From the NCBI RefSeq assembly GCF_041320595.1, contig NZ_CP166625.1:1-64000 (forward strand): a DNA stretch of 64,000 nucleotides, read 5' to 3'. Both the position numbers and the translations under genes were made by a program. The notes under the pieces were generated by a model. It ran no database searches and was not told the origin of the DNA. It worked only from the letters and a program-made list of their open reading frames with translations. The first letter of the stretch is position 1. Each line of letters begins with the position of its first letter. Shown here one piece after another: positions 31,709 through 53,182 of the stretch. The DNA comes from Pleomorphomonas sp. PLEO. Lineage in GTDB: Bacteria > Pseudomonadota > Alphaproteobacteria > Rhizobiales > Pleomorphomonadaceae.

Positions 31709-31884
31709 CCTGAAGGAATCGTCGTGTCCGCATGGTTAACCGACGGTCTTCGCAGAGAGGGCGGACCCTTCTATTTCGGCCGACAGCGTTCACGTTTCCT
31801 TAAGCGCGCCAGCTTATGGTTAACAAGCTGAAAACGCGGGCGGAAAGCAAGTTGAACAGTCTCCCCGAATACCGGAATAGGGAT

Positions 31885-34125
31885 ATGGCGAGACCGACCG
31901 GTGACGAAACGCGTCGTCCGGGCGAGGTCGATATCGGCCTGCTCTTATCCATTATCTTCCGTCAATGGCTGCTGATTTTAGCGATCACCGGGCTGTTCGT
32001 CGGCGTAGGTTTCACGTACGCCATGCTCGCCCCAAGGGTGTGGGAATCGACGGCGCGGGTATTGCTCGACCCGCGTGACAAACAGGTGGCCGGTCCTGGC
32101 CTCTCCCAACCAATGCAGAACGTAGACGCCGTCTGGATCGACACGCAGGCCAACATCGTCACCTCCGCTGCCATTCTGTCGACGGTCATCGACACACTCG
32201 GCCTCGAGCGCGACCCGGAATTCGGCGGGACCCGCGACGAGACGCTGAGGGCGCTCGTCAGGGCCATCTCAGTGGCGCGCGCCGACCAGACCTATGTGCT
32301 CGACATATCGGTTCGAAGCGGCTCGGCCGATCGCTCGGCCCGTATCGCTCAGGAACTCGCCGAGTCCTTCGTTGCCAACCAGGTCGAGGTGAAAGAGGCC
32401 GCGGTCCGCGAGGCCAGCAGTCTCATCAACCACCAGCTTGAGGACCTCCGAGCCAAGGCACGCGCCGCTCAGGAGACCCTTGAAACCTACCGGCGCGAGC
32501 ATGGCCTCCTGACCGCCAACGGCCGTTCGGTGGACGAGGACACGCTGCGCCAGCTCAACGACGGCTATGTCGCCGCCCGCCTGCGCACACAGGATGCCAA
32601 AGCGCGCCGAGACAAAATCGCCGCCGCCCGCGCCGGTGGTCTGGACACTGCGCTCAGCGGCATCGACTCCACGGTTCTGAGCCGCCTCAAGATAGAGCGG
32701 GCGCTCGCCGCTCGTACGGTCGGCGAACTCGCTCAGGATCTCGGCCCCAGCCACCCGCGTATGCTGGCAGCCCGCGGCGATCTTGAACGCGCCGACGCCC
32801 AGATCGACGGCGAGCTCAAGACGCTATCGTCGAGCGCCGACACCGAATACCAAGTGGCGGCTGCCGCGGAGGCTTCGGCCCGCAAAGCGCTTGACGATGC
32901 TAGCGCAGTGGTCACCGATACCGGCGAGCGGACCATCGAGCTGCGCGAACTTGAGAACGAGGCGTCGCTTCGCGCCGACATGTATAAGAACTATGTCGCG
33001 CGCACCGCTGAAATTACGCTGCAAGCCAACACGCAAGTGTCGGATGCGCGCGTCATTGCCCCGGCCAATATCCCCCTTTCTCCCTACGCCCCGCGTCGAA
33101 CCATCATCCTGGCTCTTGCCGGCATCGCCGGCCTTGGACTGGCGCTTACCATCGCCGTTTATCGCGGCCGTCGCTACCTGCCGGAATACCAGTGGCTTGA
33201 AGAGACGAGTTCCGCCGATTTCATTGATGAGGAGGAGCCGGCCGCCGCCGAGGATACTCCGCTGGAACCGGTCTTCGACGTCGCGGAGACGACAATCGAG
33301 GAAGATGATTCCCATGAAACACCGCCGCTGGGCGCGGTCCAAGACGGGATAGACCAGGCCGAGATTGTCGACGCCGTGCCGGCAGCGCCATCGGTTCTCG
33401 CCGAGCTGTCGGTTGACACTCGTGCCGTCGCCCGCGACTGGCGTGGACGGTCAGCCTCCAGGACCGCGCGCACGATTCTGACCAGCTCGATCACCGATCA
33501 CGATGGATCGCCCTTGCCGACCGCTGCCGAGACCTTCCGGGAACTCGTCGGCAAGATCTCGACGGCGACAGGCGCGTCGCAACTGATCCTGGTGCTGGGT
33601 GCCAACGACGGTCCGGCGACGGCGGCTGTCGCCTTCGGCCTCGCGCACGTGCCGACCAAGGATGGCGTTCTCCTCGTCGATGCCTCCTGGGATGATCTGC
33701 CGCTCCATCGCGCTTACGTCGACGAAACGATGCCCGGGGCGATCGATGTGATCGCGGGTACTGCCGATGCGGCGAGCGTCGCCATCTGCGAAGGCGGGGC
33801 CGACATCACGCTCATCGGAGTCGGCGGGCCGGAAGCCGCGGCCCAAATTGCCACCAATGTCGATCGTGTCGCCGACTTTGTCGGCAAACTTTCGCACGAC
33901 TTCGGCCGCGTCATCCTGCATTTCGGACACCGACACTCACCTGACCTGCTGGAGGCTCTCCTCCATCGCGTCGACGCCGTACTGATCGTCGCCGATGCCA
34001 TCGTTGAAGACGACGACGAAGCGGCGGCGATGGTGCGTGATCTCCTCGGTGCCCTGCCCGCCTTCACAGGGCTCGTGCTGGTGAAGGAACGCCACGAACG
34101 CGTCATCCTGGCCGAGCGAGCCTGA
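31885..34125 (+). CDS. GumC/ExoP-like polysaccharide co-polymerase with kinase-dead C-terminal domain
   Basis: 746 residues. Order: a Wzz-type first membrane helix at about 27-49, a periplasmic domain with a long coiled coil (about 165-320), the proline-rich region ANIPLSPYAPRR and second helix at about 405-425, an acidic linker (about 440-500), then a P-loop-like domain (about 542-746). Normal partners carry a BY-kinase Walker A (GKS/T); here the loop is GANDGPATAA at about 572-581 with no lysine, while the A'-like strand VLLVDASWDD is kept. There is no C-terminal tyrosine cluster. So it probably controls chain length without kinase activity. The start is 31885 (weak GGAAT/AGGGA site) or 31816. 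Divergent from the polymerase operon. Confidence 0.87.
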   Translation: MARPTGDETRRPGEVDIGLLLSIIFRQWLLILAITGLFVGVGFTYAMLAPRVWESTARVLLDPRDKQVAGPGLSQPMQNVDAVWIDTQANIVTSAAILSTVIDTLGLERDPEFGGTRDETLRALVRAISVARADQTYVLDISVRSGSADRSARIAQELAESFVANQVEVKEAAVREASSLINHQLEDLRAKARAAQETLETYRREHGLLTANGRSVDEDTLRQLNDGYVAARLRTQDAKARRDKIAAARAGGLDTALSGIDSTVLSRLKIERALAARTVGELAQDLGPSHPRMLAARGDLERADAQIDGELKTLSSSADTEYQVAAAAEASARKALDDASAVVTDTGERTIELRELENEASLRADMYKNYVARTAEITLQANTQVSDARVIAPANIPLSPYAPRRTIILALAGIAGLGLALTIAVYRGRRYLPEYQWLEETSSADFIDEEEPAAAEDTPLEPVFDVAETTIEEDDSHETPPLGAVQDGIDQAEIVDAVPAAPSVLAELSVDTRAVARDWRGRSASRTARTILTSSITDHDGSPLPTAAETFRELVGKISTATGASQLILVLGANDGPATAAVAFGLAHVPTKDGVLLVDASWDDLPLHRAYVDETMPGAIDVIAGTADAASVAICEGGADITLIGVGGPEAAAQIATNVDRVADFVGKLSHDFGRVILHFGHRHSPDLLEALLHRVDAVLIVADAIVEDDDEAAAMVRDLLGALPAFTGLVLVKERHERVILAERA

Positions 34126-34502
34126 ACGAGGCCGCATAACACGGAAGTTTGGCGGCGTACCGGCTCCAACCTCGCGAAACGCCAGTCCGGCAGCAGCATC
34201 AATTCGCAGTCTGTACCTGACAGATAGCGAACCAGCGGACGAAAGCTCGCCAAGGTCGCGCTTGGCTGGACGACAGGCTGGTGTGGCAGGTGGCGCGACC
34301 TGACTGACGGGCCGCCGAGGCTGATCTTTGAGGCCACGGTGCTCGGCAATATTCAGTAAACCCTCAGTGCGCCCCAGGACGGAGGATCGAAACGATCGCT
34401 TCCTTCCACCCAAAACAAATCGGCATTTCATTACAATTTGAAGGATCCGATAAATCGGGGCTGAACCGCGGCCGGACTAAGGTGACAGCGAAGGGGAGAG
34501 AT
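34126..34502. other. Intergenic region before the WecG-type gene
   Basis: 377 bases with no gene. It separates the GumC-like gene from a leader frame and glycosyltransferase gene, and is long enough for an independent promoter. I see no terminator with a T-run after the GumC-like gene and no convincing promoter hexamers. Confidence 0.45.
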
Positions 34503-34604
34503 ATGCCATCGGCACGGCTCTTCCCAGACGTTGCAATTCGCTGGGAGGCGGAGATGGGATCTTTATGGTCCGTCGCGCGCCTCCGGCGTCGGGATGGCGC
34601 TTGA
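34503..34604 (+). CDS. Candidate 33-codon leader frame upstream of the WecG-type gene
   Basis: ATG at 34503 follows the ribosome-site-like GGGGAG by 4 bases. The product (MPSARLFPDVAIRWEAEMGS...) is 33 residues, ends in an Arg-rich stretch, and matches no family. Its stop codon falls inside the loop of the hairpin that hides the ribosome site of the next gene, so translating it would melt the 5' arm. That geometry fits a leader peptide; a translated product is not shown. Confidence 0.35.
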   Translation: MPSARLFPDVAIRWEAEMGSLWSVARLRRRDGA

Positions 34605-34614
34605 CGCGCCGGAG
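34581..34614 (+). promoter_or_regulatory. Hairpin covering the ribosome site of the WecG-type gene
   Basis: An 8-bp perfect stem CTCCGGCG (34581-34588) with CGCCGGAG (34607-34614). The 3' arm contains GGAG (34611-34614), the only good Shine-Dalgarno sequence before the ATG at 34623 (8 bases of spacing). An alternative smaller hairpin GGCGC/GCGCC (34596-34600 with 34606-34610) competes with it. Confidence 0.5.
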
Positions 34615-34622
34615 AGTCGCCA

Positions 34623-35489
34623 ATGTCAGGTCTGTTCCACGATCGGTCGGTTACGACCGAGGCAGTCAATGCGACTGAAGCCGTTCATACCCCTCAACCG
34701 ATCGCGGTGATCGATGCAACGCGCGTCAACATCGGCAAGCAGGCCGACCTCGTCCACCTTGTCACTTTCGACGCGCTGACTGGCCGCGGTGGTACCGTTT
34801 TCACGCTGAACCTCGACCACCTCGTCAAGCTGGAGCACGATCCGGCTTTTCGGGCAGCCTACGATCAAGCAACCTATGTATCGGCGGACGGCGCACCGGT
34901 GGTGGCCATGGCACGGCGACAGGGGGCCAATCTCGTGCGCGTTACCGGCGCCGACTTGGTGCGGCCACTCTGCGGAGCCGCCGCGCTGGCCCGGATTCCC
35001 GTGCATTTCTTCGGCACGACCCCGGAGACTCTCGTCACGACCGAGGCCGTATTGCGTTGCGAGTTTCCGCGCCTGATCGTCGCTGGTATCGAAAGCCCCC
35101 CCTTTGGTTTCAGTCCGTTTGGCATTGAAGCCCGCGCCGCGGCTGAACGTGTGGCGTCAAGTGGTGCCCGCATCTGTTTTGTGGCGCTCGGCGCGCCCAA
35201 GCAGGAGGTTTTCGCAGAATTTGCCAGGCGCTGGGCACCCGGTGTTACCTTTGTTTGTATCGGCGCCGCGCTCGATTTCATTGGCGGCAGTCAGAAGCGC
35301 GCGCCAGAATTTCTTCGGGAAGCAGGCCTCGAGTGGCTGTGGCGGCTCATCCACGACCCACGTCGCCTCGCCAAACGCTATGTGCTGTCGGCGATGTACC
35401 TCATGCGATACAACGTCCGCCAACTGGCTGGTCGACTGCCGAGACGGCGCCGGCTCGCCGCTTCCGACAATGCTACCCGCGAGGAATGA
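34623..35489 (+). CDS. WecG/TagA/CpsF-family glycosyltransferase (GT26)
   Basis: 288-residue cytoplasmic glycosyltransferase. Seen: TLNLDHLVKLEHDPAFRAAYDQA, SADGAPVVAMARRQG and the GADLVRPLC segment of the family, then VALGAPKQEVFAEFARRW and GAALDFIGGSQKRAPEFLREAGLEWLWRLIHDPRRLAKRY. The GGSQKRAP...GLEWLWRL...P.R pattern is diagnostic for GT26. It adds a sugar, often ManNAc/ManNAcA-type or a glucose in rhizobial polymers, to a lipid-linked intermediate in exopolysaccharide synthesis; the sugar is not readable. The GT4 gene starts 8 bases after its stop. Confidence 0.92.
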   Translation: MSGLFHDRSVTTEAVNATEAVHTPQPIAVIDATRVNIGKQADLVHLVTFDALTGRGGTVFTLNLDHLVKLEHDPAFRAAYDQATYVSADGAPVVAMARRQGANLVRVTGADLVRPLCGAAALARIPVHFFGTTPETLVTTEAVLRCEFPRLIVAGIESPPFGFSPFGIEARAAAERVASSGARICFVALGAPKQEVFAEFARRWAPGVTFVCIGAALDFIGGSQKRAPEFLREAGLEWLWRLIHDPRRLAKRYVLSAMYLMRYNVRQLAGRLPRRRRLAASDNATREE

Positions 35490-35496
35490 TCAGACG

Positions 35497-36741
35497 ATGG
35501 TTCATCGCATCACCGTTCTTCACTCCATCGATCCGCGCGGCGGCAAGGTGGGCGGCATCGAGACGCATATCCGACTGCTGCTGTCACGTTATCCCGATAC
35601 CGTATCGGTGCTGCTGGTCGGCATCGACGAGCGCGGCGATCTCGAGATTGGCAAGCCGGTCAAGGTTGAGTTCGACGGCCGTCAGATAGACTTCCTGCCC
35701 GTGATTCATATTCCCGGCGAAACCATGCGCGCCGCGGCCAAGAAAATCAGCCAGTCGGTAACGCTGCACTTCACCCTCGGAATTATGCGTTATCTGTTCA
35801 CCATTCGCCGTCTCTCGGCAGGTGATTCCGCCTCAACCGAGATCGAGCGCTTCGAGCAGGCAATTCCAGCCCGGCTGATCGGCAACCCTGTGGTGCAACT
35901 CGTGCACAACGAGGAGACCAAGGGCGACAAGATGGACAGTCTCATCGGCCGCTACTGGTGGATTCATCGCCTCAACGAAAAGATTGCCCTCACCCTCGCC
36001 GCGCGCGTCGTGGGCGTCAATCCCAACATCATCGCCCGCTATGAGCGGGAGATGCCGAGGATCGCTCGCAAATCCGAATTCATGACGGTGTCGGTCGACA
36101 CCGAGCGCTTTCCCGCTGCGCCCTTTCCGACAGACGACGTGTTCCGCGTTGTGTTCGCCGGCCGGCTCGACGCCTTCAAGGATCCGCCCTTGATGTTCGA
36201 GACGCTACGGCGTCTTCATGCCAAGCTCGGCGGCAAGTTTGAATTTCATTACATCGGTACGTCCGACCCACATCGCGACAAGGAATTCGCGGCCATCGAG
36301 CCATTCACCATCCGCCACGGATTCCAGACTGGCGATGGCGTGTCGGCCATCATGCGTAACTGTCACGCCGGTATCCTCACGTCCTTTTTCGAGGGCATGC
36401 CCTGTTACCTGCTGGAAGTCCTTTCGAGCGGCAGACCGATGGGGGCCATCCGGCTGTCGCAATATGATCCGCTGATCGAGGCGGGCGTGTCCGGCTTCCT
36501 CGTCGAGCGACCTGATGACCGTGAGATAGCCGCTGAGGTGATGGCCGATCACTTCGTACAGCTAGCCGCAGACATCGCTGCCGGTCGGCTCAATCCTGAA
36601 GCCATCCGCGCCAAGGTGACGCCCTATTCGGTGGCAGTGCAGATGCCGAAGCTGTTTGAGCGTCACATCGCGCTTGGCTGCGGCCGCTCTCGACCTCATC
36701 AACCCGCCGTCGCCAGTCCGGCGAATAGCCGCTCCCACTGA
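35497..36741 (+). CDS. Glycosyltransferase family 4, exopolysaccharide locus
   Basis: 414-residue GT-B fold enzyme. Seen: an N-terminal domain with the glycine motif GGKVGGIETHIRLLLSRY, and a C-terminal Glyco_trans_1 domain with VVFAGRLDAFKDPPLMFETLRRLH and the nucleotide-sugar E-x7-E-type region GILTSFFEGMPCYLLEVLSSGRPMGAI. It presumably adds a hexose to the growing lipid-linked repeat. It is probably cotranscribed with the WecG-type gene (stop 35489, start 35497; GAGGA about 12 bases upstream overlaps the end of that gene). Its last 43 bases overlap the 3' end of the next, convergent glycosyltransferase gene. Confidence 0.9.
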   Translation: MVHRITVLHSIDPRGGKVGGIETHIRLLLSRYPDTVSVLLVGIDERGDLEIGKPVKVEFDGRQIDFLPVIHIPGETMRAAAKKISQSVTLHFTLGIMRYLFTIRRLSAGDSASTEIERFEQAIPARLIGNPVVQLVHNEETKGDKMDSLIGRYWWIHRLNEKIALTLAARVVGVNPNIIARYEREMPRIARKSEFMTVSVDTERFPAAPFPTDDVFRVVFAGRLDAFKDPPLMFETLRRLHAKLGGKFEFHYIGTSDPHRDKEFAAIEPFTIRHGFQTGDGVSAIMRNCHAGILTSFFEGMPCYLLEVLSSGRPMGAIRLSQYDPLIEAGVSGFLVERPDDREIAAEVMADHFVQLAADIAAGRLNPEAIRAKVTPYSVAVQMPKLFERHIALGCGRSRPHQPAVASPANSRSH

Positions 36742-37760
36742 TCGATACCAGCCTCGGCCGAGAACTCTTGGGCTCTGGCGACGCCCGGCCCTGGATCTGG
36801 TTGCATTGCCAATGCCCGGTCAAGTGCCGCTGCCAGCGCAGCGGCATCTTCGACCGGAACCAATTGGCCATATGGTCCGGCTAGGATTTCCCGCGACCCA
36901 TCGCAGTCGGTGGCAACCACCCGAAGCCCAGCTGAGAGCGCTTCGACGGTTGTCATGCCGAAGGCCTCGGTGCGCGACGGCACAGCCGCGACGCGTGCAA
37001 GGCCGTAGACCTCAGCCGCCGACGAAACGCGCCCAAGGAAGCGCACGCGATCGCTGATGCCGAGATCTACCGTCTGCTGGACGAGCCGCTGCCGCTCCGG
37101 CCCGTCGCCGCCAATAATGAGGCGGGCCTCGGGCGTCGTCAGGCGGGCGAAGGCATCGATCAGCACGTCTGTGCCTTTTTCCCGCGACAGGCGGCCAACG
37201 GCACCAACTAGGGGCGGCCTAGCGGCAATCTCCTCGGTTGTCGCGGCGGCTATCAATGGCACTGGATTATAGATGCGCTCCGTCTTGGCCGCAGGCGCAT
37301 GCCAGCGGTCGACGAGCGCCCGCACAATACCGTCGGACACACCGACGAACCGCCGGGTCAGAGGCACAAACAAAGGCAAGGCATAGAAGCCGACAGCCGA
37401 CAGGCGGCCGGTCTTGTATTCCTCGAACCCATGATAGGAGAAGACAAGCGGTGTCCGTGACAGGGCAAGGATTTTGGCGAGAGCCAGCTTGACGCAGTTG
37501 ACTGAAACGGCCCCGGCGATCACATCGAAGGAGTGGCCGCGCAGCAGGCGGGCGAGCTGCAACACGGCGCCTATATGACCTTTGCCGACTTCGATTGTGG
37601 AAACGGCTGGATCGACACCGTCGTCGGCCACTTTCTCGTCGAAAGCGAAGGTAACATGGTGGCCGCGTGCCGCTAGACCGCTAGCAAGGATAGCCCAGAC
37701 TCGCTCGGCGCCACCGCCGCCGGAGGCGCGGGTATAGAGAAGAACATGGAGCTTGCGCAT
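36699..37760 (-). CDS. Glycosyltransferase family 4, convergent
   Basis: 353-residue GT-B enzyme. Seen: LLYTRASGGGGAERVWAILASGLAARGH at the N-terminus, VGAVGRLSREKGTDVLIDAFARL (phosphate-binding start of the second domain) and VPSRTEAFGMTTVEALSAGLRVVATDCDGSREIL (E-x7-E-type motif). An excellent site CTGGAGGCGAA precedes ATG 37760. Oriented against the rest of the exopolysaccharide genes and overlapping the preceding gene tail-to-tail by 43 bases. Divergent from the DMT transporter gene, 132 bases away. Confidence 0.9.
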   Translation of the reverse strand: MRKLHVLLYTRASGGGGAERVWAILASGLAARGHHVTFAFDEKVADDGVDPAVSTIEVGKGHIGAVLQLARLLRGHSFDVIAGAVSVNCVKLALAKILALSRTPLVFSYHGFEEYKTGRLSAVGFYALPLFVPLTRRFVGVSDGIVRALVDRWHAPAAKTERIYNPVPLIAAATTEEIAARPPLVGAVGRLSREKGTDVLIDAFARLTTPEARLIIGGDGPERQRLVQQTVDLGISDRVRFLGRVSSAAEVYGLARVAAVPSRTEAFGMTTVEALSAGLRVVATDCDGSREILAGPYGQLVPVEDAAALAAALDRALAMQPDPGPGVARAQEFSAEAGIDQWERLFAGLATAG

Positions 37761-37892
37761 TTCGCCTCCAGAGCGGCGGGAGCCTGCATGAAGGTAGCCT
37801 TGGAACACTCCTAGGACCAAGCGGGAAATGAGTGTCGGCTCCCCAGAACCGTCCCGCCGTCCTCGCCAAGATGGCCGGGATCGGCTATCGAG

Positions 37893-38831
37893 ATGCGACT
37901 TTCGTCGATCCCGCTGGAGCTCCGTTTGTCCGCTAAGTCTCTCGCCCACCGCGCCGCCGGTTCCACCGTCGGCCTCGGCATCTTCATGATGTTCTTCGGC
38001 GACTTCATGTTCGCCGTCAATGACGTCATGGGCAAGTGGTTGGCTGGAACCTTTTCGGCCGGACAAATCGTCTTGGTGCGATCGCTCGCCGCGCTCCTGG
38101 TGCTCGCTCCGCTTCTTCTGAAAGGCGGCGCACCGGAACTCGTTCGGCTCGAGCGGCCAGGAATACAGGTGTCACGTGTGGCGCTGGCCACAGCCGAGAT
38201 CGTGTTTTTCTATATGGCCATCCGCTTCCTGCCGCTCGCCGACGTCATGACGTTCTATCTCGCCGGGCCGATCTATGTTGCCGCGGTATCGCCGTGGCTG
38301 CTCGGCGAGCAGGTGAGCAAGCGCCAATGGTTGGCCATCGCCATCGGGTTTGCCGGGGTCATCTTCGTGCTGCGCCCGGGCGCGGGCAGCCTATCGCTCG
38401 CCTCGCTCATCTCCATTGCCGGCTCGCTTTGCTACGCCATGATGGTGGTGCAAAGCCGCCAGCTTCGGGGCACGCCCGACCGGGTGCTGGTGTTCTGGCA
38501 GACTGTCGGCGCGCTTGCGGTCGGCGCCGTCCTGGCGCCCTTCGACTGGGTCATGCCGAACCTTGTAGACCTCGTCATGCTGGCTGCTCTCGGCATCATC
38601 TCGATGACCGCCCACCTCTGCATAGCCCGCTCGGTCAAGCTGGCGCCGGCTGCCGTGGTCGCGCCAATTCAGTATTCGCTGCTGCTGTGGGCCATTTTAT
38701 TCGGATGGCTGGTGTTCGGTGATCGACCGCGGCCATCAATGCTGGTTGGCGCCGCTGTCATCGTCATCGCCGGCCTGATGGTGGTGGGCGGACGTGGCAA
38801 CCGTAACGCCACAACAGAAGGTCGTGACTGA
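37893..38831 (+). CDS. DMT-superfamily (EamA) transporter
   Basis: 312-residue inner-membrane protein with about ten hydrophobic helices in two EamA repeats (about residues 25-155 and 165-300). Recognisable pieces are the first-repeat end FYLAGPIYVAAVSPWLLGEQVSKRQWLAIAIGFAGVIFVLRPG and the second-repeat end LLLWAILFGWLVFGDRPRPSMLVGAAVIVIAGL. It exports or imports an unknown metabolite or drug. It lies just after the exopolysaccharide locus but shows no specific link to it. The N-terminal 25 residues precede the first helix and the start is uncertain. Confidence 0.88.
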   Translation: MRLSSIPLELRLSAKSLAHRAAGSTVGLGIFMMFFGDFMFAVNDVMGKWLAGTFSAGQIVLVRSLAALLVLAPLLLKGGAPELVRLERPGIQVSRVALATAEIVFFYMAIRFLPLADVMTFYLAGPIYVAAVSPWLLGEQVSKRQWLAIAIGFAGVIFVLRPGAGSLSLASLISIAGSLCYAMMVVQSRQLRGTPDRVLVFWQTVGALAVGAVLAPFDWVMPNLVDLVMLAALGIISMTAHLCIARSVKLAPAAVVAPIQYSLLLWAILFGWLVFGDRPRPSMLVGAAVIVIAGLMVVGGRGNRNATTEGRD

Positions 38832-42604: not shown

Positions 42605-43654
42605 TCAGGCGGCACCAGAGAACAAGCCGGCCGCCCGGATCTCCAGCGCGGCGCGATCACCGATGCGGGGTGGCTCACGATCGGCCGGGGTCAGAGCTTC
42701 AATGACCGTGTCGGTCCCGTCGGCGCGGAAACCGACACGACGCGACGAGCCGGAGCGGTGCAACGATACCACCGTTGCCCAGAGGCCGTCGCCATCGCGG
42801 CGGAAGGCGACATGCTCGGGCCGAACGTAGAGCTTGGCCGGTCCGTCGAACAGAAGCGGTGGCAGCTTGGGAATAGTCACTTCCTGCTGGCCGACATAGG
42901 GACGGCCTTTGGTGATGTGGATATCGAGGCGGACCGATTCGCCGATGAAGTCGAAGACAAAGGGCGTCGCCGGCCGGTCATAGACGTCCTCGGGCGTACC
43001 TTCCTGCTCGATCCCGCCCGCGCTCATGACGACGACGCGGTCGGCGAGATCGAGCGCTTCTTCCTGGTCATGGGTCACGAACAGCGTGGTGTGACCGGTA
43101 CGGTCGTGGAATTCCCTCAGCCACAGGCGCAGTTCCTTGCGGACCTTGGCGTCCAAGGCCCCGAACGGTTCATCGAGCAGGAGAACGCGCGGCTCAACCG
43201 CGAGCGCCCGGGCCAGCGCCACCCGCTGGCGCTGGCCGCCGGACAGCTGGCTCGGATAACGGCCGCCGTAATTTGGCAACTGAATCAGCGCGAGCAGTTC
43301 CTCGACCTTGGCCCGGATGGCCGCCGCCGTTGGCCGCGTCCGGCGTGGCCGCACCCTCAAGCCATAGGAGATATTGTCGGCGATGGTGAGATGCTTGAAG
43401 AGCGCATAGTGCTGGAAGACGAAGCCGATCTGCCGTTCCTGGACGCTTTTGAAGCTAGCGTCCTCACCGCCGAACAAGACCTGTCCGCCCGATGGAATCT
43501 CGAGCCCGGCGACGCAACGCAGCAGCGTCGTCTTTCCCGAGCCGGACGGGCCGAGCAACGCCAGAAGTTCACCGGAGGCGACCTTGAGATCGACGCCGTG
43601 CAGAGCCGCCGTCGTGCCGAAGGTCTTCGTGAGGTTGCGAATGTCGAGTTCCAT
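42605..43654 (-). CDS. cysA: Sulfate/thiosulfate ABC transporter ATP-binding protein
   Basis: 349 residues. Seen: Walker [10 protein letters not shown] (about 35-43), the signature [15 protein letters not shown], Walker [17 protein letters not shown], the H-loop [15 protein letters not shown] and a C-terminal TOBE-like regulatory domain (about 235-349). It energises sulfate import as the last gene of sbp-cysU-cysW-cysA, following cysW by 11 bases. Gene order and the CysA-type C-terminus support sulfate over other CUT/MOI-type transporters. Confidence 0.95.
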
Positions 43655-43665
43655 CGGAGGCTCCG

Positions 43666-44586
43666 TCAGTGGCGGTGACCAGCGGCGAGATCGCTGGCAT
43701 AGCGATGCTCCAGCCAGGACTTGATGCCGAGCGTCACCAGCGCCAGGGCGGCGAGCAGCGAGGCAACGGCGAAGGCGGCGACGAACTGATACTCGTTGTA
43801 GAGGATCTCTATGTGCAACGGCATGGTGTTGGTGTAGCCGCGGATGTGCCCAGAGACCACGGATACTGCCCCGAACTCACCCATGGCGCGGGCGTTACAG
43901 AGCAGCACGCCATAAAGCAGCGCCCATTTGACGTTGGGCAGCGTCACCGTCCAGAACATGCGGAAGCCGGAGGCGCCTAACGTCAGCGCCGCCTCTTCGT
44001 CGGTATTGCCCAGTTCCTCCATCAGCGGGATCAGCTCGCGGGCGATGAAGGGAAAGGTGACAAAGATCGTCGCCATGACAATGCCCGGCAGGGCGAAAAT
44101 GATCTGAATGCCGGCTGACTGCAGCAGGCCGCCAAAGAGGCCGTGGCTGGCATAGAGCAGCACGTAGACGAGGCCGGCAACCACCGGCGACACAGAAAAG
44201 GGCAGGTCGATCAGCGTCACCAAAAAGGTCTTGCCGCGAAAATCGAACTTGGCGATCGCCCAGGCAGCGGAAACGCCAAAGACGAGATTGGCCGGCACGG
44301 CGATGACGGCCACCACCAGCGTCAGGATGATGGCGTCGAAGGCGGCCGGATCGGCGAATGCCTGAAGAAAGGCACCGGTCCCTTTCCGGAAAGCCTCCAT
44401 GAAAACCGTGATGAGCGGCAACAGCAGGAACAGGCCGAGAAAGCCCACCGCCAGCGCGATCAGCAGGCGCCTGACCCACGGCGCCTCCTCGGTCGGCAAT
44501 CGGCGGCGCGGCGGACTGGCAACCACCGATCCGGCGACGGCCGTTTCTTCAAGCGATGCGGCGAGCGCGACGGAACTGTCAGACAT
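43666..44586 (-). CDS. cysW: Sulfate ABC transporter permease CysW
   Basis: 306-residue inner-membrane permease with about six helices after a 40-residue N-terminal tail. The EAA loop, which contacts CysA, is around [52 protein letters not shown] is the typical CysW motif. Start 44586 has GAGG 7 bases upstream and overlaps the end of cysU by 8 bases; another ATG lies 6 bases upstream. Forms a heterodimer with CysU. Confidence 0.94.
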
Positions 44587-45421
44587 GACCATACCTCGCG
44601 CGCGCCCGGGCTTGGATCAAATTGATGACGAGAAGGGTTGCGAAACTGACCGTCAGCATGATGGCGGCAACGGCCGTGGCGCCGGCATAGTTGAACTCTT
44701 CAAGCTTGATGATGATGAGCAGCGGCGCGATTTCCGAGACATAGGGAATATTGCCGGCGATGAAGATCACCGATCCATATTCACCGACCGCCCGGGCGAA
44801 GGCCAGCGCGAAACCGGTCAGAATGGCCGGACTTAACACCGGCAGCACCACCGAGGCGATGGTTCTGAGCCGACCGGCGCCAAGCGTCGCGGCGGCCTCT
44901 TCAAGTTCGCGATCAACCTCGGCGAGCACCGGTTGCACCGTGCGGACGATGAACGGCAGACCGACGAAGACCAGCGCCAGAAAGATACCGAATGGCGTGA
45001 AGGCGATCTTGAGACCGACAATGGCCGCGATGGAGCCGATCCAGCCTTTCGGGGCATAAAGCGCGGTCAAGGCGATACCGGCCACCGCCGTCGGCAAGGC
45101 GAAGGGCAGATCGATGATGGCATCGAAGAAGCGGCGACCTGGGAAGTCGTAGCGCACCAGCACCCATGCGATCAGCAGACCGAAGGGCACGTTGAAGGCC
45201 GCCGCCGCGAAGCTGGTCACGAAAGACAGCCTCAGCGCCGACAGCGTGCGGCCGTCGAGCGCCAAGGCAATTATCTCATGTGCCCCCAGCGAAGAAGCCC
45301 GGAAAAGCAGGGCGCCAAGTGGAAGGAGCACGATCACCGACAGATACAGGATCGTGAAGGTGATGGTCAGGCGAAAGCCCGGCAGGACGCTCGGCTTGAC
45401 GAAGAGCACGTTCGGGGTCAT
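44579..45421 (-). CDS. cysU: Sulfate ABC transporter permease CysU (CysT)
   Basis: 280-residue inner-membrane permease with six or so helices. The EAA loop is [51 protein letters not shown], which contains the CysT-type [10 protein letters not shown] motif. Start 45421 is chosen for the GAGG just upstream; the frame is open further but without similarity. Follows sbp by 161 bases containing a strong hairpin, then overlaps cysW. Confidence 0.94.
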
Positions 45422-45441
45422 CGGCCTCGCTTTCGGAGGAA

Positions 45442-45473
45442 GCCGGCGGACGGGGGGTACCCGGTCCGCCGGC
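45442..45473 (-). promoter_or_regulatory. Intercistronic hairpin between sbp and cysU
   Basis: A 10-bp stem GCCGGCGGAC with GTCCGCCGGC, lying 21 bases upstream of the cysU start on the minus strand. There is no T-run, so it is more likely a stabiliser of the 3' end of sbp mRNA, or a processing site, than a full terminator. This would favour more binding protein than permease. Confidence 0.55.
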
Positions 45474-45582
45474 GGCAAGGTCTCGTTCTGTCAAAGGAAA
45501 GAGAAATCCAGGCGGCGCCGTTGCAATCCACATGGCAATCCCTCCACTCATCGGCACCGGCGAGAACGGCCGGCAATGTCGG

Positions 45583-46602
45583 TCATTGTGCAGGCTTGTA
45601 GATCTGGTCAAACACGCCGCCATCGCCGAAATGATAGGGCTGCGCCTTGGCCCAGCCGCCGAACAGCGGATCATCGATGCTGACCAGCTTCAGCTGAGGG
45701 ATCGACTTCAGAAGCGCGGGATCGACCAGGTTCGGCTCGGACGGGCGATAGTGATACTTGGCAGCGAGCGTCTGCCCCTCGGCCGAGTAGAGATACTCGA
45801 GATAGGCGCGCGCCTCCTTCTCGGTGCCGTTGGTCTTGGCGTTGCCCTCGACAACGGCGACCGGCGGCTCTGCCAGGATCGACTGCGGGGGTATCACGAT
45901 GTCGAATTTGTCGGCGCCGAATTCGTCGAGCGCCAGGAAAGCCTCGTTCTCCCAGGCGAGCAGCACATCGCCCAACTCGCGCTGTGCAAAAGTAACGGTC
46001 GATCCACGCGCACCAGTGTCGAGCACCGGCACATGCTTGTAGAGGGTCGCGACGTAATCGCGAATCTTCGCCTCGTCACCGCCATACTGGCCAGCGGCCC
46101 AGGCCCAGGCGGCAAGGTAGTTCCAGCGCGCTCCTCCCGAGGTCTTCGGGTTGGGGGTGATCACTTCGATGCCGTCCTTGACGAGGTCACCCCAGTCATG
46201 GATGCCCTTGGGGTTCCCCTTGCGAACCAGGAAGACGATGGTCGAAGTGTACGGGGCGGAATTGTGCGGCAGCTTGCCACGCCAATCGGCCGGGATTTTG
46301 CCTGTCTTCTCGACGATGGCGTTGATGTCGCTTTCGAGCGCCAGCGTCACCACATCGGCCGGCAGCCCATCGATGACGGCGCGCGCCTGTTTGCCCGAGC
46401 CGCCGTGAGAGGCGCGAATGGCGATATCCTCGCCCGTCTCGGCCTTCCAATGCGCCGCGAAGGCCGCATTGTAGGCCTCGTAGAACTCGCGCGTCGGATC
46501 GTATGAAACGTTGGTCAGCGTCACCGCCATGGCGGGAGCGGCGAGGACGAGCGGTGCCGCGACCACGGCGGCGAACAGTCCCAGAAGTTTCGAGCCTCTC
46601 AT
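45583..46602 (-). CDS. sbp: Periplasmic sulfate-binding protein
   Basis: 339-residue exported binding protein. Signal peptide [21 protein letters not shown] (cleavage about residue 26). Seen: [68 protein letters not shown] and [22 protein letters not shown], all typical of the Sbp/CysP family. It captures sulfate or thiosulfate and feeds CysUWA. First gene of the operon; the 246 bases before it should hold the promoter. A 7-bp hairpin with a 3-base loop (46624-46640) lies 21 bases upstream of the start. Confidence 0.95.
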
Positions 46603-46848: not shown

Positions 46849-48300
46849 TCAGCGGCGAACCAAGTCGCGGACGCGATGGATGACCTCCGCGAGCAAAGCA
46901 GCAAGCGGCTTCTCCGGCTGCTGTCTCAGCAAAGACAGCGACGGATAGCGAGGCGTCTTTTCCCCCTCCAGCCGCCAGACCCAACTGGCCGCGGCGGGAA
47001 GCAGTGCAACGCCCGGCCGTCCGAGCGCGCCAGCCAGGCGAAGCGACAGACCGTCGATGGCGATAATGGCATCGATCCGGCTGATCAGAGCGGCGCAGTC
47101 GACCCGAGCGTCGACGCCGGCCTCGAAATCGGGGCCGGGATGCTCGATGCGGACCGGTGGATCGGCGACCTCCCAGCCGGACGGCGTTGACGAGCGGGCA
47201 AGCATGGTCGATGGCACCCGCTCGAGAGCGACAAAGCGCAGGTCACCGATACCGGCGAGCGGCGCGAGATCGTCGAGCCGAAGACCGCCGCCCCAGACAA
47301 GGCCAATGGCCGGCTTGCCACGGCCGAGGTCCAGCCGCGCGCTCCAGCGGTCCGCGAGCATTGGCTCGGCGGCGAGCAGTGAGCCGGTTGGGACGAAGCT
47401 GCCGGCGGTGAGCCCAAGGCGATGTGGCAGGCCGACGAGCGGCGCAGCGGCGCCAGCGGCCCTAACCCAATCGCCGACATCATCGTTGTCAGCAACGACG
47501 TGGCCGACGCCCTCGATCGACGAAGCGAGGCGAACGAAAGGCTTCGGCGCCACCAGCACGAGGTAGGCGGCCAATGACCGGGCAAGCGGCAACACGGACG
47601 CGAAGGTGATGAGGTCAAGCGGATCGGGGCCGGTCCAAACGAGGAGCGGACGATCAAGCGGAGCCCCATCCCACACCGGCAGCCGGGCCGCCCAGGGCGG
47701 ACAAGTGGCCACCCCATCAAGGTCGGCAAAGCCGCCGGCCATGTCACCGAGCGACAAGAGCGCCGCCGCTCGGTCGGCATGCGGACGAGATTCGCCTGTC
47801 CGCCGGAAAGCCTCGACCGCCGCCAGCGGGCGACCGGCAGCGACCAGGGCCGAACCGAGGCCGCTCAGGGCATGCGGCTCGGCCGGGTCAAGCCGCAACG
47901 CCGCATCGAAAGCCGAAACCGCGCCGTCGGCATCGCCGGCGGCAAGGCGCGCCACGCCGAGGCGGGCGGCGAGGCGCGCGTCGAGCGGTTTGGCGGCACG
48001 GGCTCGTTCGAAGGCAGCCGCGGCTTCCGGCAAGCGAGAGGTCGCGGCAAGCGCCTCGCCAAGCGCGGCGGCGATATCGGCGCGGCCGGGCTCGGTGCGA
48101 TCGGCACGCGTCAGGAATATGACGGCGCGCGCATGATCGCCATTGGCACGGGCGGCGGTGGCGGCCCCCAGCATGGCCGGCACATGGTCCGGCGCCCGCA
48201 CGAGAGCCACCTCATAGAGGGCGACCGCCTCGATCCATTTGTGAGTGGCTTCGGCAGCGGCGGCACGGGCCAGCAGTTGATCAACGACCGTTTCTGTCAC
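46849..48300 (-). CDS. TPR protein with C-terminal glycosyltransferase-like domain
   Basis: 483 residues. N-terminal TPR units (about 1-175: WIEAVALYEVALVRAPDHVPAMLGAA, AAAFERARAAKPLDARLAARLGVARLAAGDADGAVSAFDAALRLDP) lead into a GT9/GT41-like domain (about 190-470). The end of that domain, IDGLSLRLAGALGRPGVALLPAAASWVWRLEGEKTPRYPSLSLLRQ, follows the pattern (HLAGALG.P ... DWRW ... SPWYP..RLFRQ) seen in TPR-glycosyltransferase proteins, but H, D and W positions are altered. The GTG start at 48300 overlaps the stop of the upstream giant gene (GTGA). It is a shortened fourth copy of that protein's module. Function unknown. Confidence 0.8.
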   Translation of the reverse strand: MTETVVDQLLARAAAAEATHKWIEAVALYEVALVRAPDHVPAMLGAATAARANGDHARAVIFLTRADRTEPGRADIAAALGEALAATSRLPEAAAAFERARAAKPLDARLAARLGVARLAAGDADGAVSAFDAALRLDPAEPHALSGLGSALVAAGRPLAAVEAFRRTGESRPHADRAAALLSLGDMAGGFADLDGVATCPPWAARLPVWDGAPLDRPLLVWTGPDPLDLITFASVLPLARSLAAYLVLVAPKPFVRLASSIEGVGHVVADNDDVGDWVRAAGAAAPLVGLPHRLGLTAGSFVPTGSLLAAEPMLADRWSARLDLGRGKPAIGLVWGGGLRLDDLAPLAGIGDLRFVALERVPSTMLARSSTPSGWEVADPPVRIEHPGPDFEAGVDARVDCAALISRIDAIIAIDGLSLRLAGALGRPGVALLPAAASWVWRLEGEKTPRYPSLSLLRQQPEKPLAALLAEVIHRVRDLVRR

Positions 48301-51300
48301 GACGCCGGCCTTTCGGGAAGGAGACCGCGCAGGACACCGACGAGGTCGCCACCCCGTTGCACGAAGCGGGCTTCGGGATACCAGAGCGTACCGCCCTCCC
48401 CCGCCCAAAGCCAGTCGGCCGAGGATGGATCGATCACGACTGTCGGCCGGCCAAGGGTGGCGGCAAGATGGGCGGTAGCCGAGACGGGAGCAATCACCGC
48501 ATCGAGCGCCGCCATCGCCGCCGCCATTTCGACGAAGCCGCCAAGCCGATCGCCCAGCGGTTCGACAACGAGTCCATTCGGCAGCACGGCGAGCGAAGCC
48601 CGGCCAGCGCGGCGATCAAGGGCGAACAGGCGGATGCCCTGGAGGTCGGCAAGCGGGGCGAGAAGCGAGGCGTCCGCGGCGTTCCGCCAATAAAGGCCGA
48701 TAGCAGTCCGGCCGTCGCCGCCGAAGAATTGCCGCCAAGCATCAATTCGCAAGGGATCTGGCCGGAAAAGGGCGGGTGGCGGCAGGCTTGTCCGTTCGGT
48801 GCCGAACACATGCGGCAGGCTTCGAAGCGGCACCTCCAGATCGTAGGGCGGCAGACGCCGCCCCTGCTCGACCACCGTGACCTGACCGCCAAGATCAAGC
48901 CGGCGGAACAGATCGGTAAGAGCCGGGCGCACCTCAAGAACGAGCCGAGGCCCATTCGCCATGAACTGCGGCAGGAAGCGGGCAAAGGCGATGTCCAGCC
49001 CAAGATCGCGTTCGCCATGAACGAGCAGCGTTCGATCGCGAATATCCTCGCCAGTCCAGCGAGCTGCTGAAAAACGTCGCGGCAATAGTTCGGCAGCTTG
49101 CCAGCGTATCTCCGAGCGAGCAAAGCCACGCTGGTAGTCGCCGGCCATCAGCAGCGCCTCCGCTTCGTCCATCAAGAGCTCGGGGTCGGTCGGCGCCAGC
49201 GCCACGGCGCGACCATAACAACCGAGAGCCTCAACCGTGCGACCAAGCGCCACCAGAGCCTTGCCAACAGTACGATGGGCACGAGCGAGGTCGGGCCGGA
49301 GTTCGACTGCCCGCTCGGCATGGGCAAGCGCCTCTTCGAGGCGACCATCGAGCCGTTCGGCATCCGAGAGTTCGACGAGCCGCTCGGCGGTCGGCGCCTC
49401 GGCCACCAGCGCGGCAAGAAGGCTTCCAGCTCGCTCGCGTTCGCCGATCCGCAGAAGGGCCGAGGCGAGTTTCTCCCGCAGTTCCGGCTCGGCGGTCCCG
49501 GCGGCAATGGCGTCGCCCAGCAGCAGGACGGCGCGATGATCGTCGCGGCTGGCGAGCGCGGCGAGACCGGCGCGCGCGAGCGCCGCCACCGGCCGCGGGA
49601 AGAACTCATCGCCTTCTAAAGAAGCGTCGATGGCCGGCGCTGGGTCGGCACGGAAAGGAACGGCACGGTCGCCGGCCGCGAAGGCGGCAAGTGCCACGAC
49701 GAGGCGGGAAAGTCGGTCGGATTCTCCCTCCCCGGGACGGTGGCGAAAAAGGCGCGTGGCCGGGAACCAGGGCGTTCGACCGTCTTTTTCCAGCCAGAGC
49801 CAATCATCGCGGTCCGGGCCGATGACAAAGGCGGGGCGACCGAGGGCGCCGGCCAATACGGCGATTGGGCTACCCGCGAGCGCGACTACGGCGTCAATAT
49901 TCGGAAGGGCGGCGGCAATCTTGTCGAGCTCCGACTGACCGATGGCAAGCGGCCATGCATTTGGCAGGCGCGCTGTGGCCCCAGCGTCGAGGGCGACGAA
50001 GGTGACCCCGGGCAGCGCGGCGAGCAGCGCCATATCGACCGAAGTAGCCAGACCGTCGAGCGCCAAGCCGACACGGAAACCTTCGAGATGGGCGAATGTC
50101 CGTGCCACGTTAGTCACGGCAACCGGATCGGATGCGAGATAGCGGCGCGGCGCCGGCAACCCATCCATGGTGAGGCCAAACAGAGCCGGCAGGCTCATCA
50201 CGCGGAGGGCGAAGTCACTACCCTGCGCCTTGCCCATGCCGTCGATCCCGTCGGCGTAGGCCAGCAAAGGCGCCAGTTCGTCCGCGCCATCGACGCGAAC
50301 GGTTGTCGCGCCCGCCGCCTTGAGCATGGGAGCAAAGCGCAGGAAACGTAACAGCACCCCCGCGTCGCCTTCGGCAGCAAGGATCACATCTCGACCGGCG
50401 AGGTCGGCGAGGGCTGGAAGAGCCCGCGCTTCGCCATGCCGGCACTCAAATTCGACAAGGCCGGTGGCAAAGTCGCCAGAGGCCAACAGCAGTTCGCCGA
50501 GAAAGGCGCGGGTGGCTGGGGACGAGCGGCGAGCAACGAGACGACGCAGGACGTCGATCGCCTCACGGGTGCGGCCGACTGTGGCGAGGGCGCGAGCAAA
50601 TTCCATTGCCGCTTCGGTGTGACTACCGTCGCGGGCCACGGCAGACCCAAGGAAATGCAGGGCAAGCCCAGTCTCGCCGGCCGTTGCCGCGAGACGCCCG
50701 AGACCGAGGCGGGCGTCGGCGCCATCTTGAACAATGACAGCCCGTTCGAAAGCGCGGGCAGCGGCGCGGGTATCGCCAAGCTTCCTCAGTGCCTCTCCCC
50801 AAGCCACAAGCAGATCGGTCCGGTGGGGCGCCGTCTTTACCGCCTGTCGGAGGGCAAACTCCGCTCTGGGCTGGTCACCGAGTTCGATGAGAGCGGCGGC
50901 GCGTGCCATCAGCGCATCAATGGAGGACGGATCAATGCTGGATGCCTGCTCGGCGTGCTGGAGCGCCGAGGCGGGGTTGCCCCGCTCGAGGTCGCGGCGG
51001 GCGGCAAGGAGCAGCAGCGGAGCATGGCGCGAGCCGATGGAAAGCCCGGCGTCAAGCACTCGATTGGCATCGGCCACCTCGCCAACGCGGAACAATAGCC
51101 CAGCAAGCCGCGCCCAAGCCTCCGGGACCGCCGGGGCGAGCGCCACCAGGCGCGCGGCAAATGGCAGAGCGGCACGGGCGGCGGCGGCGCCATCGACCCC
51201 CTCGGCGGCGGCGGCGAGCCGGTTGAGGGCAGCGACGACGGATAACCCCGGCGTGGCGAGCGCCTTTGCCTCCGATGTCAATGCATTAGCGACACCCAGC

Positions 51301-52205
51301 CAGTCCGCTCCTTCAGCGCGAAACAGGCGCGCGCCAGGATACCAGCGACTGAACTGACCTTGGCATCCCCACATCCAATGCGGCGCATCGTCGAGCAGCA
51401 GCCACAATGGCGCACCGGCAACGCCAGCGGCATGGGCCACCGGACCATCGGTTGCCACAACGAGGTCGAGGCCGGCGAGTGTGGCGGGATTGAACTCGAC
51501 CACCTGGCCGCCGAGCTTCCTGGCCGCCGCCTGATCAAGTGCCACCAGGCGGAAGGCGGGAAAGGCTTGGCGAAGCACCGGTATGACGCTCTCCGCTGTC
51601 ATCTCGGTCCCCCTGCCCCATGGCGACGCGCCCAAGGCGAGCCCAATAGCCATCCCTTTGTGTTGCAACGGCAACAAGATGGGCGGCGGCACGTCGTCCG
51701 GCGAAAGGCCAAGCACACATGGCGCGGAGGCAAGCGGCAAGATGAGATCATGCGGCGGCAGCGAGGCAACACCGACGAGTGGCACGCCGCCAAAAGCGGG
51801 GGCGAAGGGCGAAAGCCATTCCAGTTGCTCAGCGGGAACCGCCAGCGTCAGCGACAATACGCGAGCGGCAAGTTTCGGCAAGAAACGGGCAAAGGCGAGC
51901 GTGTCGCACTCGTCCTCCTCGGCGAGCACGACGACGCGAGCCGCTGGCGATCGCGCGCCGTTCCAGCGCGGCCGGTCGGATGGTGCTAACAAGGGGCGGC
52001 GCTCAAAATCGGCGAAACCTTCCGCCCAGTTCCCATCGGCGAGCGCAAGCCGCGCCGCGTCCAGGCGAGAGGATGTCGCGGCATCCAGTGCCCGTGTCTG
52101 GCGGTCCTCATCGATCGTCAGGTCTTCGTCCAGTTTAAGCTCCAGATGCCACCGCCGTTGGTTCAAGCCCTCTCCATGGAGCGAACAGCCTGATTCGGGG
52201 AACAT
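48297..52205 (-). CDS. Giant protein with three tandem TPR/glycosyltransferase-like modules
   Basis: 1302 residues, no signal peptide, no membrane helix. Domain order: glycosyltransferase-like module 1 (about 55-297), TPR block (about 345-575), module 2 (about 578-820), TPR block (about 865-1022), module 3 (about 1025-1285). Each module starts with a W/Y..GF/GL..xE.R block (WAEGFADFERR, FATGLVEFECR, YQRGFARSEIR) and ends with a ...AHLA.xLGRP ... DW.W ... WYP/WFP..R segment like the GT9/GT41 end of bacterial TPR-glycosyltransferases. Module 3 is best kept; modules 1 and 2 lack some family residues, so they may be structural. ATG 52205 is chosen for GGAG 8 bases upstream; the frame is open to 52364. 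Coupled to the 483-residue gene downstream, divergent from the LOG gene. Confidence 0.82.
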   Translation of the reverse strand: MFPESGCSLHGEGLNQRRWHLELKLDEDLTIDEDRQTRALDAATSSRLDAARLALADGNWAEGFADFERRPLLAPSDRPRWNGARSPAARVVVLAEEDECDTLAFARFLPKLAARVLSLTLAVPAEQLEWLSPFAPAFGGVPLVGVASLPPHDLILPLASAPCVLGLSPDDVPPPILLPLQHKGMAIGLALGASPWGRGTEMTAESVIPVLRQAFPAFRLVALDQAAARKLGGQVVEFNPATLAGLDLVVATDGPVAHAAGVAGAPLWLLLDDAPHWMWGCQGQFSRWYPGARLFRAEGADWLGVANALTSEAKALATPGLSVVAALNRLAAAAEGVDGAAAARAALPFAARLVALAPAVPEAWARLAGLLFRVGEVADANRVLDAGLSIGSRHAPLLLLAARRDLERGNPASALQHAEQASSIDPSSIDALMARAAALIELGDQPRAEFALRQAVKTAPHRTDLLVAWGEALRKLGDTRAAARAFERAVIVQDGADARLGLGRLAATAGETGLALHFLGSAVARDGSHTEAAMEFARALATVGRTREAIDVLRRLVARRSSPATRAFLGELLLASGDFATGLVEFECRHGEARALPALADLAGRDVILAAEGDAGVLLRFLRFAPMLKAAGATTVRVDGADELAPLLAYADGIDGMGKAQGSDFALRVMSLPALFGLTMDGLPAPRRYLASDPVAVTNVARTFAHLEGFRVGLALDGLATSVDMALLAALPGVTFVALDAGATARLPNAWPLAIGQSELDKIAAALPNIDAVVALAGSPIAVLAGALGRPAFVIGPDRDDWLWLEKDGRTPWFPATRLFRHRPGEGESDRLSRLVVALAAFAAGDRAVPFRADPAPAIDASLEGDEFFPRPVAALARAGLAALASRDDHRAVLLLGDAIAAGTAEPELREKLASALLRIGERERAGSLLAALVAEAPTAERLVELSDAERLDGRLEEALAHAERAVELRPDLARAHRTVGKALVALGRTVEALGCYGRAVALAPTDPELLMDEAEALLMAGDYQRGFARSEIRWQAAELLPRRFSAARWTGEDIRDRTLLVHGERDLGLDIAFARFLPQFMANGPRLVLEVRPALTDLFRRLDLGGQVTVVEQGRRLPPYDLEVPLRSLPHVFGTERTSLPPPALFRPDPLRIDAWRQFFGGDGRTAIGLYWRNAADASLLAPLADLQGIRLFALDRRAGRASLAVLPNGLVVEPLGDRLGGFVEMAAAMAALDAVIAPVSATAHLAATLGRPTVVIDPSSADWLWAGEGGTLWYPEARFVQRGGDLVGVLRGLLPERPAS

Positions 52206-52363: not shown

Positions 52364-53182
52364 ATGACCGACATCGCTGATAATACCGCCCAGAAGACCT
52401 CGAAGGCCTTCGTCCTGCCCGCCGTCGACAGCGATTATCTCCTGTCGGACTCGATGCGCGGCGTCCGCTTCATGCTGGAGTATTCCAAAGCAGAGCAGAC
52501 CCTGAAGGCTTGGGGCATTCGTTCGACGCTCGTGGTATTCGGTTCGGCCCGCGTCCATGAAAACGGCGATCCTTTGCATAATCGCTGGTATGGGACGGCA
52601 CGCGAATTCGGCCGCATTGCCTCCGAGCGCGGCGGCGCCGTCAATCGCACCGACGGCTTCTTCGACAATGTCATCGCGACCGGCGGCGGCCCAGGCATCA
52701 TGGAGGCTGCCAATCGTGGCGCCCGCGACGCCGGTGCGCCCACCATCGGCTTCAACATTACCTTGCCGCACGAGCAGGAACCCAACGCCTATACGACGCC
52801 GCAGCTCACTTTCCGGTTCCACTACTTTGCCATGCGCAAGATGCACCTTGCGATGCGCGCCAATGCCCTGGTGGTTTTCCCCGGCGGCTTCGGCACCTTC
52901 GACGAACTGTTCGAACTCCTCACTCTGACCCAGACGCACAAAGGCACCCGCATCCCGGTCGTGCTAGTCGACGGCGAATATTGGCACAAGGTCATCAACT
53001 TCGACGCCTTGGCCGATTACGGCATGATCAACCGCGAGGACATCGGTCTCGTTCACTTCGCCGAGACGGCCGAGGAAATCTGGGGCTATCTCGCCTCCGA
53101 AAACCTCGGATCGCACCGCAACCGCGACAAGGCCCGATATGGTGAGGGCGTGCTGACCCGCCCTTCCCCCGTGCCGGAATGA
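52364..53182 (+). CDS. LOG family protein (TIGR00730-type)
   Basis: 272-residue cytosolic protein of the LOG/'lysine decarboxylase-like' family. Seen: VVFGSARV, IATGGGPGIMEAANRGARDAG and VVFPGGFGTFDELFELLTLTQ, i.e. the PGGxGTxxE nucleotide-binding motif. Many members are cytokinin riboside 5'-monophosphate phosphoribohydrolases or nucleotide-salvage enzymes; others bind second messengers. The N-terminal 80 residues are longer than in the short LOG type. Divergent from the giant TPR gene, 158 bases away, and 73 bases before mutS. Confidence 0.88.
   Translation: MTDIADNTAQKTSKAFVLPAVDSDYLLSDSMRGVRFMLEYSKAEQTLKAWGIRSTLVVFGSARVHENGDPLHNRWYGTAREFGRIASERGGAVNRTDGFFDNVIATGGGPGIMEAANRGARDAGAPTIGFNITLPHEQEPNAYTTPQLTFRFHYFAMRKMHLAMRANALVVFPGGFGTFDELFELLTLTQTHKGTRIPVVLVDGEYWHKVINFDALADYGMINREDIGLVHFAETAEEIWGYLASENLGSHRNRDKARYGEGVLTRPSPVPE

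Follow-up and report, generated by a model that had tools for sequence, protein, structure and literature searches.

In FlmG, the flagellin O-glycosyltransferase of Caulobacter, N-terminal tetratricopeptide repeats (TPRs) precede a C-terminal glycosyltransferase (GT) domain of the GT-B type; the TPR block alone binds the acceptor, and the protein glycosylates flagellins (PMC7591256, excerpted text). OGT and SPINDLY likewise combine TPRs with a GT-B domain, and bacterial proteins that join TPRs to a GT9-like domain (PF01075) occur in single-module and multi-module forms. TibC, one of the bacterial autotransporter heptosyltransferases, modifies repetitive secreted proteins in the cytoplasm; as described in an excerpt of its source, it is active, has a beta-barrel and an iron finger, assembles into a dodecamer and carries no TPR (PMC4358343). 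Here we describe a TPR-GT array in a 64,000-nucleotide stretch of Pleomorphomonas sp. PLEO (NZ_CP166625.1, positions 1 to 64,000; the whole stretch is called the window). The array consists of a giant open reading frame (ORF) of 1302 amino acids (aa) with three GT-like modules (48297..52205, minus strand, ATG start) and of gene B, a 483-aa frame with a TPR block and a fourth GT-like module (46849..48300, minus strand), identified by Pfam and by a GT profile.

We compared the four modules with those of relatives and found that they retain only 4, 2, 3 and 2 (modules 1, 2, 3 and B) of eight key residues. Our favored explanation, to which we give a probability of roughly 0.6, is that a former multi-site protein glycosyltransferase array is now maintained without catalysis, as a multivalent scaffold that binds proteins or as a chaperone or regulator. 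It draws on sequence comparisons that document motif loss in homologous modules, a genomic site in common with an intact cluster, intact frames and ratios of nonsynonymous to synonymous change (dN/dS) below 1.

The array resembles each described system in part. Its domain order is like that of the bacterial TPR plus GT9-like proteins and its GT segment is homologous to theirs, but the key residues kept there are gone in the window's modules, which also miss the PF01075 cut-off. A TPR block with a C-terminal GT-B domain, as in FlmG, is present here too when compared with the excerpted description, although FlmG is there an active, single-module protein encoded by a motility gene. With TibC the array has in common a GT-B, heptosyltransferase-like fold, a similarity of fold alone (Foldseek expectation value, E, of 2e-5 for module 1). 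OGT and SPINDLY are the top Foldseek matches of module 3 with its TPRs, but at low template modeling (TM) scores (~0.3-0.4), and the window's GT part shows kinship in sequence to GT9.

Layout, homology and predicted fold of the modules

From its N-terminus, the giant ORF contains the GT-like segment of module 1 (51201..52046, residues ~54-335, from profile matches), TPR block 2 (50496..51200, residues ~336-570, from matches to Pfam TPR_19 and other TPR families), the GT-like segment of module 2 (49656..50495, residues ~571-850, from a profile match and its motif states), TPR block 3 (49161..49655, residues ~851-1015, from Pfam TPR matches) and the GT-like segment of module 3 (48300..49160, residues ~1016-1302, from a profile match and a structural model), all on the minus strand. 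The plus-strand frame at 48297-52205 is interrupted by stops. The GTG start of gene B overlaps the TGA stop of the giant ORF (GTGA).

A sequence-only reading of this stretch had placed three repeated TPR-plus-GT units in the 1302-aa frame at these positions, without naming the strand. The repeat holds: the GT-like segments of modules 1-3 are mutually 29-32% identical (BLASTP in the better direction, E 9e-15, 1e-15 and 5e-19). The inventory changes in two respects, as a fourth module lies in the overlapping gene B, and TPR blocks accompany modules 2 and 3 but are nearly gone from module 1, whose GT part begins at about residue 53 compared with residues 254-340 in seven related loci. Gene B and module 1 match each other weakly by BLASTP (E 2e-4 one way and 0.014 the other way). 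A GT profile built only from 60 relatives in other bacteria matched module 1 in two pieces (E 1.4e-7 and 3.5e-18), module 2 (E 3.9e-36), module 3 (E 2e-47) and the module of gene B (E 1e-31), while matching 0/40 shuffled sequences used as controls.

Pfam detects the TPRs of the giant ORF and gene B, and GT9 only below the cut-off on module 3 (PF01075, 13.9 bits versus a gathering cut-off of 22, E 0.035); module 1 matches no Pfam family, and PF01075 is not among the matches listed for gene B. In one set of outside relatives, 75/75 matched PF01075 at E <=0.01. Taken together, these comparisons indicate that all four modules are homologous to TPR-GT9 proteins. A sequence search of the PDB returned TPR matches only; with the TPRs left out, the GT profile gave only a weak match to WaaC (E 0.07), whose alignment falls at the DTxxxH motif.

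We built AlphaFold models of module 1 and of TPR block 3 with module 3, using the window together with relatives from the genome scan. Module 1 alone was modeled with a predicted local distance difference test score (pLDDT) of 85.7 and a predicted TM-score (pTM) of 0.84, and residues 880-1302 with a pLDDT of 93.2 and a pTM of 0.90; in the latter model, ten helices of TPR block 3 stand ahead of the GT part. Foldseek placed HepII 1psw (E 1.4e-5), TibC 4rap and WaaC on top for module 1, and SPINDLY (E 6e-11), OGT (E 4e-10) and then HepII 1psw (E 2.1e-7) for TPR block 3 with module 3. The TM-scores are modest (0.3-0.5, with 0.39-0.48 for the best GT-B matches). The models therefore predict a GT-B-like fold for modules 1 and 3, in agreement with the fold expected in the sequence-only reading. 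Separately, residues 1145-1283, within module 3, match a single PHROGs phage family of unassigned function (phrog_36377, E 3.8e-9).

Loss of key residues and conserved columns

Our family sample comprised 20 genomes, 14 of them in the window's genus. Twelve of the 14 (the window's included) carry the three-module form, which in the 11 congeners is 67-78% identical to the window's. In the remaining two, gene B accompanies a two-module form (G018) or a 1768-aa form (G011). It also accompanies forms of 1691-1735 aa in three further genomes of this family (G001, G002 and G006) and in three of another (G153, G260 and G276). Gene B lies downstream of the array in 12/12 of the three-module genomes, whose arrays we call eroded, and at eight other array loci. 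A wide set of 79 loci from named genomes is non-random: of 540 stretches that were confirmed, it represents the best 80 when ranked by their likeness to a query with three modules.

We scored eight residues taken from the GT9-type motifs EQGxGD, D..RS, DTxxxH and DWRW. Single-module relatives keep 8/8 in 12/12 cases. The modules of seven intact arrays score 8/8 (25/28) or 7/8 (3/28), and the 224 modules of the wide set score 8 (192 modules), 7 (29), 6 (1) or 5 (2), one of the two at 5 missing its N-terminal part; L081 is very probably identical to record L050, and its modules are tallied both in the intact arrays and in the wide set. By comparison, 48/48 modules of the eroded arrays score 1-4 (module 1, 3-4; module 2, 2; module 3, 3; gene B, 1-3). 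The erosion relative to the family that the sequence-only reading had noticed is thus borne out, but its best-preserved unit, module 3, retains three key residues versus four in module 1. Module 3 is without the Asp residues of EQGxGD and DTxxxH, the D..RS segment and the DWRW Arg; module 1 retains more. G018, whose modules score 2, 6 and 3 of 8, was kept out of the eroded-array counts, including those of column retention and loss.

The losses of the four modules overlap. The wide set has 57 columns conserved at >=90%, of which 24 are lost from module 1, 22 from module 2, 21 from module 3 and 27 from gene B, and 14 are retained in all four. Eight columns are missing from every one of the four (permutation mean 1.6; 8 was reached in 2/100000 permutations), and seven of these eight lie in active-site loops, which contain 16/57 columns (Fisher p 0.0003). 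Pooled retention is lower in the loops than elsewhere (26/64 versus 108/164, p 0.0009). Across the eroded modules, the lost columns are retained in 0/48 (Q71, Q78, R214, Q243 and R330), 1/48 (T305) or 2/48 cases (G72 and S215). For TibC, Asp-110 has been proposed as the catalytic base; replacing it, or any of the sugar-binding residues Arg-286, Trp-305 and Lys-230, with Ala abolished transfer or diminished it largely (PMC4358343, excerpted text). Judging from its position, Asp-110 would correspond to the Asp of EQGxGD. Catalysis by the canonical route has most likely been lost from all four modules, as judged from these residues.

Origin of the array and of its genomic site

Multi-module architecture is itself neither unique to the window nor recent. 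At the order level, a match at E 1e-15 is present in 48/397 genomes. In the wide set, 44 ORFs with at least two and up to ten TPR-GT modules occur in 35/79 loci, a share inflated by the ranking of these loci against a query with three modules. This count rules out the triple architecture as a unique feature and contradicts the expectation that such proteins normally have one TPR block and one GT domain. The largest case is a 5371-aa ORF with ten modules, all at 8/8 key residues, in a Telmatospirillum metagenome-assembled genome (L085:2921-19036), near a hook-like flagellar protein. Intact arrays of up to ten modules per ORF are little described in the literature that we searched. What is unusual here is the decay of the modules, not their number.

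The sequence-only reading had proposed internal duplication followed by division of labor. Module 3 sequences from two families group in one clade, as do those of module B and, when modules 1 are held together, those of module 2. Because the modules group across families, their duplication predates the window's lineage, and a recent internal duplication is ruled out. A free quick tree placed the window's module 1 among modules 2; holding modules 1 together raised the likelihood by 12.16 (approximately unbiased test, p-AU 0.87), and we therefore read that placement as a long-branch effect.

The intact arrays have a characteristic neighborhood. A long Ser/Thr-rich repeat ORF lies upstream on the same strand in 7/7 intact-array loci, a GT4-type gene is present in 6/7 (two were scanned), and DUF6165 genes are close by in 5/7 by ORF comparison and, in G011, by profile too. 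The giant repeat ORF of G011, the only one scanned, matches serralysin C-terminal and RTX families. The G011 cluster includes an ATP-binding cassette (ABC) exporter, and a 59-62% identical exporter is encoded on the array's contig in G001, G002 and G006. Relatives of the giant protein are strong in 4/20 family genomes (G011, G001, G002 and G006) and weak in G004; in this search they were absent from the window's genome and from 12/13 congeners. Exporter-like genes in the window's genome reach at best 33% identity among the matches listed. RTX repeats had no matches in the window's genome, and of 11 eroded-array genomes searched, seven have none and four have some, so these genomes have not generally lost the RTX class of proteins. 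Four eroded-array genomes (G007, G010, G012 and G016) from which the rest of the cluster is gone still carry DUF6165 genes at other places; in G006, the sole DUF6165 match lies away from the array and is below the cut-off.

The flanking genes connect the intact and eroded arrays. The window's array is flanked by a plus-strand gene (52364..53182), presumably LOG-like, that also flanks the intact array of G011. Neighbors of the G011 cluster match this gene (83%) and the window's mutS-like (80%) and trpS-like ORFs (87%), all three under names that we assume. The two arrays therefore occupy the same site. Downstream, genes that we take to encode a sulfate-type ABC transporter (42605..46602, minus strand) come directly after the array in the window and in G018, and lie on another contig in G011. 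Relocation of the array, which we favored at first since its neighbors differ from those of most intact loci, was dropped: the intact array of G011 adjoins the matching LOG, mutS and trpS genes, and loss in place is therefore preferred as the simplest history, with an order of events that we infer.

Nor is a link between all multi-module arrays and RTX proteins general, as RTX-type or Ser/Thr-rich ORFs were found by a simple scan in only some of the 35 loci. Seven such ORFs, when scanned, comprised three FlgK, one hook-like, one RTX and one TPR protein and one without a family. FlgK genes lie a few kb or less from the arrays of Geomonas L090, L095 and L096, which suggests that these arrays glycosylate flagellar proteins. 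Elsewhere in the window's genome, a lone single-module TPR-GT gene has all eight key residues (L160:10450-12453, genome positions 2658449-2660452); its neighbors look, on our assumption, like chemoreceptor genes. The window also contains a polysaccharide-type cluster at 28926-38066, with ORFs that we take to be flippase-, polymerase- and chain-length-like, together with glycosyltransferases.

The neighborhoods and motifs bear on whether the window's protein is an ordinary multi-site protein glycosyltransferase, with three or four working modules that modify several sites of one surface protein. Intact arrays of relatives keep the key residues, their neighbors include a giant repeat protein, FlgK (three loci) and a hook-like protein (one), and FlmG offers a described TPR plus GT-B precedent on flagellins. 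The idea, raised in the sequence-only reading, fits these relatives and hence the ancestry of the array, but probably not the window's own protein: 48/48 modules of the 12 arrays are down to 1-4 key residues and the window's genome is without the giant protein, so that we consider continued multi-site activity very improbable.

Constraint and the present role of the array

Frames of at least 1255 aa are open in 12/12 eroded-array genomes at a mean identity of ~70%; in G012, one TAG lies upstream of the start used. We calculated dN/dS as the median of pairwise comparisons among the 12 eroded arrays, in which synonymous change is fairly high and the ratios are therefore rough. The medians are 0.21, 0.23 and 0.17 for the GT parts of modules 1, 2 and 3, 0.21 and 0.22 for TPR blocks 2 and 3, and 0.10 and 0.18 for the TPR and GT parts of gene B. 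Long stems lead to the eroded modules in the quick tree (1.79, 1.01, 0.69 and 0.94) and the branches thereafter have ordinary lengths, indicating fast change followed by constraint. Open frames and constraint together argue for a present function. A pseudogene decaying after the loss of the giant protein and its exporter would account for the missing substrate-like and exporter genes, the lost catalytic motifs and the missing module of G018, but with every frame open, dN/dS well below 1 and gene B kept in 12/12 genomes, it is extremely improbable.

According to our favored explanation, the giant protein and gene B would go back to a four-module, TPR-guided protein glycosyltransferase array whose gene cluster included an ABC exporter and, as the probable acceptor, a giant Ser/Thr-rich repeat protein. 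In the window's lineage, the giant protein and exporter would have been lost, and all four modules would have lost their GT9-type donor-binding and catalytic motifs, while fold, TPRs and open frames were kept under purifying selection. In a now inactive protein, the dead GT-B domains and the superhelices of the TPRs may then serve as docking surfaces, and protein binding by both is most simply its present function. The more specific history, in which the partner and exporter were lost at the locus, all modules then lost identical catalytic columns in parallel, and the resulting pseudoenzyme array was kept by selection as a scaffold in at least 12 species, with G011 still intact and G018 halfway, stands in our view at even odds.

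Several observations weigh against the scaffold explanation. Module 1 retains four key residues, including the Asp and His of DTxxxH in 12/12 genomes and the Asp of EQGxGD in 10/12, and gene B retains two Asp, in 12/12 and 11/12 genomes. Taken module by module, the concentration of losses in the loops has p-values of 0.24, 0.03, 0.07 and 0.24, below 0.05 for module 2 only, and the loops were defined after the motifs had been seen. The wide set was retrieved by a pattern adjoining the active site, and degenerate arrays elsewhere would therefore be under-sampled. The N-terminal 55 residues of the giant protein have a median dN/dS of 0.58, and the array evolves faster than the neighboring transporter gene (dN/dS 0.07, 11 genomes).

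The residues retained by module 1, with purifying selection on all modules, would also fit a changed enzyme, in which module 1, perhaps helped by the others, transfers a sugar or other group with a new donor and acceptor; the residue losses would then mark altered specificity and not an end of catalysis. Yet module 1 has lost R214, Q71, Q243, R330 and S215 in 12/12 genomes, no stem of the tree is longer than its own (1.79 changes per column) and its TPR block is nearly gone, so we regard a changed enzyme as unlikely. Alternatively, the dead GT domains could, without any transfer, still bind a nucleotide or nucleotide-sugar and signal this to a TPR-bound partner. The fold retained in the models of modules 1 and 3 and the donor-site parts retained in module 1 and gene B are compatible with such a regulatory pseudoenzyme, but donor-site residues vary between the four modules and are mostly lost, which makes it decidedly unlikely.

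Under the scaffold explanation, the array is a naturally replicated loss of catalysis with retention of the protein, comprising four paralogous modules in twelve species, with intact and intermediate congeners and a single genomic site. It is also a warning that a glycosyltransferase annotation of ORFs like these can be mistaken. The array would allow the roles of TPR-GT proteins beyond catalysis, such as acceptor binding and chaperoning, to be studied together with the origin of pseudoenzymes.

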